6,373 nt of DNA from the NCBI GenBank assembly GCA_937950065.1, contig CALFEN010000189.1, positions 1 to 6,373 on the forward strand. The letters run 5' to 3'. The position numbers and the translations under genes are program-made. Positions 1 to 1,071 of the stretch are shown piece by piece. Numbering within the stretch: position 1 is the stretch's first letter; each line of letters opens with the position of its first letter. Source of the stretch: an uncultured bacterium. GTDB lineage: Bacteria; Patescibacteria; JAEDAM01; Absconditabacterales; Absconditicoccaceae. The notes under the pieces are model-generated. The model was given only the letters and a program-made list of their open reading frames with translations. It was not told where the DNA came from and ran no database searches.

Positions 1-1071
1 AAATTTTTTAAAAAATACAAAATAGATGCTATTTTTACAAATAGATCTTACTGACCTTATGGATCCAAAAGAGATTTTTTGATAGCTAAGCTTTGTAAGC
101 AGTATGGAATAGATTTTAATGTTTATGATGATTTTTTGCTTGTAGAGCCGGAGCAGGTGAGTCCTACCAAAGTTTTTACTCCATATTTCAAAAAATGGCA
201 GAAAATAGATAAAAAAGAAATGCTACCAGAACCAAAAAATATAGACTGTCCAAAAATTTATATCAAACCGCGAATCCAGATAATTAAATATTTAAATTAT
301 GATAAAATTTTTTTCTGGGATATAAATTTCACCGACCAAAGACTAAAAAACTTTAATTTCTCAAATTATGAAGATACAAGAAATTTACCATATTTAGATT
401 GAAGTTCCAGACTTTCGCCTTATATCAGATTTTGAATTATTTCTATTAGGCAGCTTTATCACAAAGTCAGAGCCTCTGACAATGTTTGAGCACAGACTTT
501 TGTATCGCAGCTTGCGTGGAGGGATTTTTGGAATCATATTTTTATTAATTTCCCAGAGACGTATTTTTTAGAATTTCAGACAAAAAAAAGAGATATTGCA
601 TGGCAAAATAATGAAAAATTATTTGAATCATGGAAAAACTGAATGACGTGATATCCTATAGTAGACGCTGGTATGAGACAGCTAAAACAAGAGAACCGAA
701 TGCACAATAGAGTCAGGATGATAACATCTTCATTCTTAACCAAAGATTTACTGATAGACCGAAGACGGTGAGAAAGGCATTTTGCGAATTACCTGCTGGA
801 CTATGATAGTAATTTGAATACGTGAAACTGGCAGTGGGCAGCATCTGTTGGAGCAGACCCCAAACCACTCAGGATATTCAATCCTGTGCTGCAAGCAAAA
901 AGGTTTGACTCGCATTGCGAGTATATAAAAAAATATATTCCAGAATTAAGAAATATTAATGCAAAGCAAATACTTGATCCTTTAAATAATAACTTGTGAT
1001 ATGCTGCACCCGTAGTCAATCACTACGAACGTAGTAAGCTTGCCAAAACGTTGTATTATAATATTAATTAG
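1..1071 (+). CDS. phrB: Deoxyribodipyrimidine photolyase (class I CPD type), 5' end outside window
   Basis: FAD-dependent, light-driven repair of cyclobutane pyrimidine dimers in DNA. The visible 356 residues match the family from the end of the N-terminal antenna domain (TNRSYGPYGSKRD, about 13-25; FTPYFKKW, about 60-67) through the whole FAD-binding domain: LSPYIRFG (about 138-145), QLAWRDFW (170-177), WKNGMTGYPIVDAGMRQL (211-228), WMHNRVRM (233-240), LLIDWRWGERHF (251-262), NTGNWQWAAS (273-282) and RIFNP. Compared with E. coli PhrB, numbering is offset by about 105, so roughly 105 N-terminal residues are missing. Equivalents of the E. coli electron-transfer triad W306/W359/W382 are W201, W254 and W277, and the substrate-side W277 is W173. 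W254 is encoded by CGA, so the triad is complete only if CGA means Trp. N273 corresponds to the FAD-facing Asn378. Nine in-frame UGA codons are read as Gly; the stop is TAG. The antenna chromophore cannot be judged. A cryptochrome of the same fold is a less likely alternative. Confidence 0.95.

Follow-up and report, generated by a model that had tools for sequence, protein, structure and literature searches.

The window, the whole 6,373-nt stretch of DNA analysed here, almost certainly derives from an uncultured bacterium, most likely a member of the Absconditabacteria, that uses the genetic code published for that group: UGA is read as Gly, CGA and CGG are both read as Trp, and Arg is encoded by AGA, AGG, CGU and CGC. 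Codon sites in the window, codon votes across a related order and the tryptophan-type UCG and CCG tRNAs of relatives agree on UGA = Gly and CGA = CGG = Trp, as the sequence-only reading had proposed. That reading had also described the combination as already reported for Absconditabacterales, which the available parts of Shulgin & Eddy (2021, eLife 10:e71402, PMC8629427) bear out, and a passage of PMC13092985 refers to the same reassignment. The kind of reassignment is already published; the instance is new. We take the Absconditabacteria code to be NCBI table 37. The terms 'translation table 37' and 'genetic code 37' were absent from the matches listed in our literature search, and these matches contained no further paper on the reassignment, most subscription journals lying outside the search.

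Tryptophan codons in the photolyase gene and its neighbours

Once TGA is taken as an amino acid codon, the window (GC 25%) contains five genes:

1..1071, plus strand: photolyase gene, its 5′ end cut by the window; three CGA, one CGG, one CGT, eight TGG and nine TGA codons; FAD_binding_7 match at E 4.4e-69
1064..2461, minus strand: first tandem paralog, 465 aa; CGA at 1937-1939, 1718-1720 and 1112-1114, one TGG at 2150-2152
2565..3914, minus strand: second tandem paralog, 449 aa; CGG at 3768-3770, CGA at 3603-3605 and 3171-3173, CGT at 3504-3506 and 3201-3203
3929..5278, minus strand: third tandem paralog, 449 aa; CGG at 4970-4972, 4757-4759 and 4538-4540, CGC at 4871-4873
5292..6236, minus strand: radical SAM protein, 314 aa; CGA at 5919-5921

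Together they hold 55 TGA, 9 CGA, 5 CGG, 3 CGT, 1 CGC and 11 TGG codons. The photolyase gene and the first paralog are convergent, their 3′ ends overlapping by 8 bases (1064-1071). ARAGORN detected no tRNA in the window, and nothing reached the gathering score in Rfam.

The photolyase frame is open from base 1 to a TAG at 1069-1071, and the coordinates of the following plus-strand codons are exact (E. coli residue numbers were counted from the printed alignment to 1dnp):

271..273: CGA, residue 91; a variable, mostly hydrophobic column (I/F/L/A), Arg in 0 of 87 kept homologs
697..699: CGA, residue 233, equivalent to E. coli W338; all 87 kept homologs have Trp
760..762: CGA, residue 254, equivalent to E. 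coli W359; Trp in 87 of 87 kept homologs
763..765: AGA, between CGA and CGG
766..768: CGG, residue 256, equivalent to E. coli E361; a variable column
769..771: TGA, residue 257, read as Gly; 98 Gly and 22 Trp among 120 homologs
1030..1032: CGT, residue 344; Met in 56 and Arg in 24 of 120 homologs, compatible with Arg

The column counts are based on 87 of the 120 homologs listed. The other 33 come, or are likely to come, from lineages reading TGA as sense; 29 were removed because they show Trp, a misread TGA, in invariant Gly columns, and a further four (P0016, P0089, P0111 and P0115) were excluded by name. Before they were set aside, all 120 gave Trp 107 and Arg 13 at residue 233, and Trp 103 and Arg 17 at residue 254. 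Both CGA codons occupy the W338 and W359 positions to which they had been assigned from the sequence, with Trp throughout the kept homologs and in the alignment to 1dnp, although 2e0i has Tyr in place of W338. Equally, the AGA between them and the CGG, and the UGA as Gly after it, are where they were said to be, Gly being by far the more frequent residue in that column. Among the eight columns of the photolyase with at least 95% Trp, the window has six TGG and two CGA codons; the ten columns with at least 95% Arg hold nine AGA/AGG codons and one AAA, and no CGA or CGG. The background-corrected log10 odds of Trp over Arg are 3.1 at residue 233, 3.1 at residue 254, 2.4 at residue 256 and 0.1 at residue 91, where the likelihood is neutral (-0.33 raw, 0.11 corrected). 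Gly is the top residue at six of the nine TGA sites.

The CGG at 766-768 carries less weight. The sequence-only reading had joined it with the CGA at 760-762 in a canonical motif that required Trp at both, and counted it among the invariant positions. That was right for the CGA codons but not for the CGG, whose column varies (27 Trp, 19 Ile, 15 Leu, 13 Met, 5 Glu and no Arg among the 87 kept homologs). Solved photolyases have Glu (1dnp), Arg (1owl) or Trp (2e0i) at this position. Because the column is variable, 766-768 alone does not show that CGG is Trp.

Provided that CGA is Trp, the protein would carry the features of a predicted class I CPD photolyase: it matches PF03441 (E 4.4e-69) and has a chain of Trp residues at 277 (TGG), 254 (CGA) and 201 (TGG). 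Residues 201 and 277 align with W306 and W382 of 1dnp. This chain is presumably the W382-W359-W306 chain of class I CPD photolyases, in which we take W359 to be the middle member in electron transfer. With CGA read as Trp, the photolyase retains its conserved Trp residues despite two of them being spelled CGA.

The three tandem paralogs provide a comparison within the window; identity to the first is 44% for the second and 47% for the third. One conserved site (residues 104/104/103) is TGG at 2150-2152 in the first, CGA at 3603-3605 in the second and CGG at 4970-4972 in the third, and as evidence for CGG = Trp this alignment is better than photolyase residue 256. Residues 248/248/247 are CGA/CGA/CGG, the residue 175 site is CGA/Phe/CGG, and residue 450 of the first paralog gives CGA/Phe/Met across the three. 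The CGG at 3768-3770 (residue 49 of the second paralog) lies opposite His in both others and favours neither reading. At the residue 137 site the CGT at 3504-3506 and the CGC at 4871-4873 lie opposite each other and a Lys, and the CGT at 3201-3203 (residue 238 of the second paralog) is opposite Leu and Val. The best domain match of the paralogs, Glycos_transf_1 on the second, was below Pfam's cut-off; of the 7996 candidates scored in a homolog search with the third, the sole one returned was the protein of the window itself, and a structure prediction for the first, made from three sequences, was too poor to name a fold (mean pLDDT 44.7). In the radical SAM protein, the column of the CGA at 5919-5921 (n=38) is hydrophobic, with 15 V, 11 I, 7 L, 2 F and 1 M besides 2 R; both Arg come from database translations, one of the window itself and one of its closest relative.

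Codon votes and tRNAs in the related order

Among 47 photolyase loci in public genomes, CGA occurs at conserved Trp sites in L002, L003, L012, L024, L026 and L027. Most other loci of Gracilibacteria type retain TGG at Trp sites, even with TGA as sense, the exceptions being L028 and L006, which have CGG and TCG respectively at the W338 column, and L014, with CGG at residue 256. The single CGG of L028 (9242-10279) and of L014 (4437-5474), each without CGA, fits the unconfirmed CGG = Trp of Gracilibacteria clade 1.

We searched 49 genomes of the order to which the genome of L002 belongs. We read this related order as Absconditabacterales, as suggested by G020 and G021, whose photolyases are those of L024 and L027 (Candidatus Absconditabacterales); the photolyase match of G033 shares coordinates with L012 (candidate division SR1). 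A photolyase match at E 0.001 was found in 15 of the 49 genomes, and all 15 have CGA or CGG at one at least of 11 Trp sites and at none of 11 Arg sites. Across the same genomes, AGA or AGG occupies none of the 11 Trp sites.

A wider comparison covered 39 of the 49 genomes, with about 9 to 400 kb of ORFs sampled per genome; these were aligned between genomes with CGA and CGG masked, each codon being judged by the unmasked codons opposite. CGA received 396 votes for Trp, 18 for Arg and 629 for neither (n=1043 sites), and CGG 50 for Trp, 1 for Arg, 2 ties and 90 for neither; such votes are not independent, the genomes being related and each pair counted from both sides. The control codons gave Arg 593 and Trp 5 for CGT, Arg 148 and Trp 2 for CGC, Arg 4313 and Trp 14 for AGA, and Trp 1046 and Arg 23 for TGG. 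In one codon-alignment sample, CGA otherwise lay most often opposite Phe (99), Tyr (96), Leu (67), Ile (51) and Lys (44), and TGG opposite Tyr (218), Phe (202), Leu (120) and Ile (71). The sequence-only reading would have fallen had CGA and CGG aligned mainly to Arg columns, and in the relatives CGA and CGG do the opposite, by 396 to 18 and 50 to 1. CGU and CGC are still read as Arg by the order votes (593 to 5 and 148 to 2); of the four such codons in the window, two lie opposite each other and Lys, one is opposite Leu/Val and one is on a mixed column.

The tRNA genes of the relatives point the same way. G001, G003 and G043 each have CCA, UCG, CCG, GCG, UCU, CCU and UCA tRNAs, and UCG or CCG tRNA genes were recovered in 40 of the 49 genomes, recovery being by pattern, incomplete and limited to the hits that were opened; the UCG gene of G043 came from the family search alone. 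All 35 CCG genes have A1:U72 and G73. Of 20 UCG genes, 19 have G73, so that G73 is present in 54 of 55 genes overall, and position 1:72 is A:U in 12, G:U in 6 and G:C in 2; the G043 gene, outside the 20 counted, has G1:C72 with G73. The directly readable UCG and CCG genes have T or C at position 20, G031 being the exception and nine UCG genes reading GGGAA being counted as G20; three GCG genes have A20. By these identity elements the UCG and CCG tRNAs of the relatives look tryptophan-type. The sole UCG gene lacking G73 is of Arg type, with A20 and A73 (G031 contig 58, L123 465-541), and the contig is possibly a contaminant. An Arg-type UCG tRNA with no Trp-type counterpart would have told against the proposed code, and in the relatives this lone Arg-type gene is accompanied by Trp-type UCG and CCG genes in the same bin. 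A tRNA cluster of G001 contig 6 includes a tRNA-like gene (L053 375-446) whose anticodon was called as four bases (caaa).

We propose that the genome of the window would likewise encode UCG and CCG tRNAs of tryptophan identity, with G73, without A20 and in most cases with A1:U72 or G1:U72. TrpRS would charge them alongside the ordinary CCA tRNA, and they would then read CGA and CGG. An Arg-type GCG tRNA would read CGU and CGC, and a UCA tRNA would read UGA as Gly.

Other readings of CGA and CGG

Had only UGA been reassigned, as in table 25, CGA and CGG would be Arg and the photolyase would have lost its conserved Trp residues by substitution. Two papers on the group do use table or code 25 in the parts available, and the public V. 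lugosii photolyase record P0016 shows Arg at W359. Against this, CGA or CGG recurs at 11 Trp sites over the 15 photolyase-bearing genomes, at least one site in each, and AGA or AGG is at none of them; with the order votes for CGA at 396 to 18 and the UCG and CCG tRNAs of Trp type, we consider this explanation extremely improbable. Neither the column counts nor the order votes give CGA or CGG as Arg. It is just as hard to credit that CGG alone is Trp and CGA still Arg, as proposed for Gracilibacteria clade 1. The photolyase stretches of L014 and L028 would suit such a code, having one CGG and no CGA, that of L028 at W338, but the two invariant Trp columns of the window hold CGA, not CGG, so that CGA does not behave here as the Arg codon of that clade.

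CGA and CGG might also be ambiguous, giving a mixture of Trp and Arg, for instance if UCG tRNAs were partly charged by ArgRS, and tRNA charging cannot be read from sequence. There is a slight excess of Arg votes at CGA (18/414 informative sites, ties excluded, or 4.3%) vs TGG (23/1069, 2.2%). Yet 16 of the 18 Arg votes depend on one Arg codon, and the tRNAs have Trp-type identity elements with no A20 except in the G031 gene, which makes a mixed reading unlikely. That the contig belongs to a phage or plasmid with its own code is very improbable. The recognisable genes of the window (photolyase, radical SAM) are cellular in type, the eight photolyases that a scan of viral contigs with the photolyase alignment gave are only 31-42% identical, and a scan of viral contigs with the second paralog gave no relative.

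In what the two have in common, the window and the Absconditabacteria code as described in the available text share UGA = Gly, CGA/CGG = Trp, low GC and AGA as main Arg codon. The UCG and CCG tRNAs of Trp identity described in the available parts of PMC8629427 are here seen in relatives. Gracilibacteria clade 1, in the same source, shares UGA = Gly and has CGG as possibly Trp, pending evidence, whereas the window also has CGA = Trp. In the Anaerococcus and Onthovivens codes, as far as the available descriptions go, CGG is Trp and an Arg codon has likewise been taken by a Trp-type tRNA, but CGA stays Arg. To our knowledge, UGA is not Gly in either of the two.

Annotation, lineage and degree of CGA/CGG use

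Annotation has not always followed the published code. Genes were called with table 25 in the V. lugosii paper, as its available portion states, and code 25 was likewise chosen in a 2026 study of a symbiont from the Absconditicoccaceae, whose main text contains neither CGG nor tryptophan. Table 25 prints every CGA and CGG as Arg, and the photolyase therefore seems to be without two conserved Trp residues. One of the two presumably belongs to the electron-transfer chain. The Arg that P0016 has at the W359 position would fit a CGA read by table 25. The protein database carries the products of the window from a contig of 22,667 bases, and the translations (P0006, and P0127 in part) have TGA as Trp and CGA/CGG as Arg, so that Trp replaces the proper Gly and Arg the proper Trp.

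In the photolyase tree the window forms a clade with two unbinned metagenome proteins (100/100), and the next protein by path is one from V. lugosii. CGA and CGG were masked in the DNA-derived rows; L002, L003 and L012 (duplicates of order genomes), L030 (a fragment), L046 (badly aligned), L031-L045 and L047 were outside the tree. Because its deep forks are open, we only infer from the code and the nearest relatives that the organism belongs in the Absconditabacteria. The sequence-only reading had let the code place the source in that lineage, which agrees with both lines of evidence but was put too strongly.

What may be new beyond print is the degree of CGA/CGG use. In the available parts of PMC8629427, CGA stays below 37 per 10,000 in every species and CGG below 7 in every species except one, in which the two codons come close to UGG; this use is lower than that of the window, but it refers to another denominator (Pfam-aligned codons). 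We expressed use as the share of CGA+CGG among CGA+CGG+TGG codons, taken for the order genomes from sampled conserved ORFs. The share is 14/25 in the window (~56%; 14 CGA/CGG vs 11 TGG), 12% in G003 (64/517), 39% in G043, 49% in G029, 45% in G001 (249/551; 95% range 38-54) and ~56% in G047 (133/239; 0.556, 95% range 0.49-0.65), and smaller samples from other genomes scatter more widely. In G047 (CGA 128, CGG 5, TGG 106) CGA is likely, though not certain, to form the majority of Trp codons. A first sample of G001 had CGA ahead of TGG (107 vs 92), which the larger one overturned (CGA 243 and CGG 6 vs TGG 302). The larger samples make the order a natural series, from ~12% to ~56% CGA/CGG among Trp codons, in which the takeover of a sense codon can be measured.

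We lean towards the view that in parts of the order the reassignment is already more than half complete, CGA being the most frequent Trp codon of some species and the lineage of the window having reached the same stage, and that the speed of the takeover differs among related lineages, perhaps with fast-evolving genes going first. The window differs from G003, the compared genome with the most similar photolyase (57%), at a Fisher p of 1.3e-6 (first G003 sample, 54/419). Within the window itself the share is 9/10 in the paralogs and 5/15 in the photolyase and radical SAM genes (p 0.012, on small numbers).
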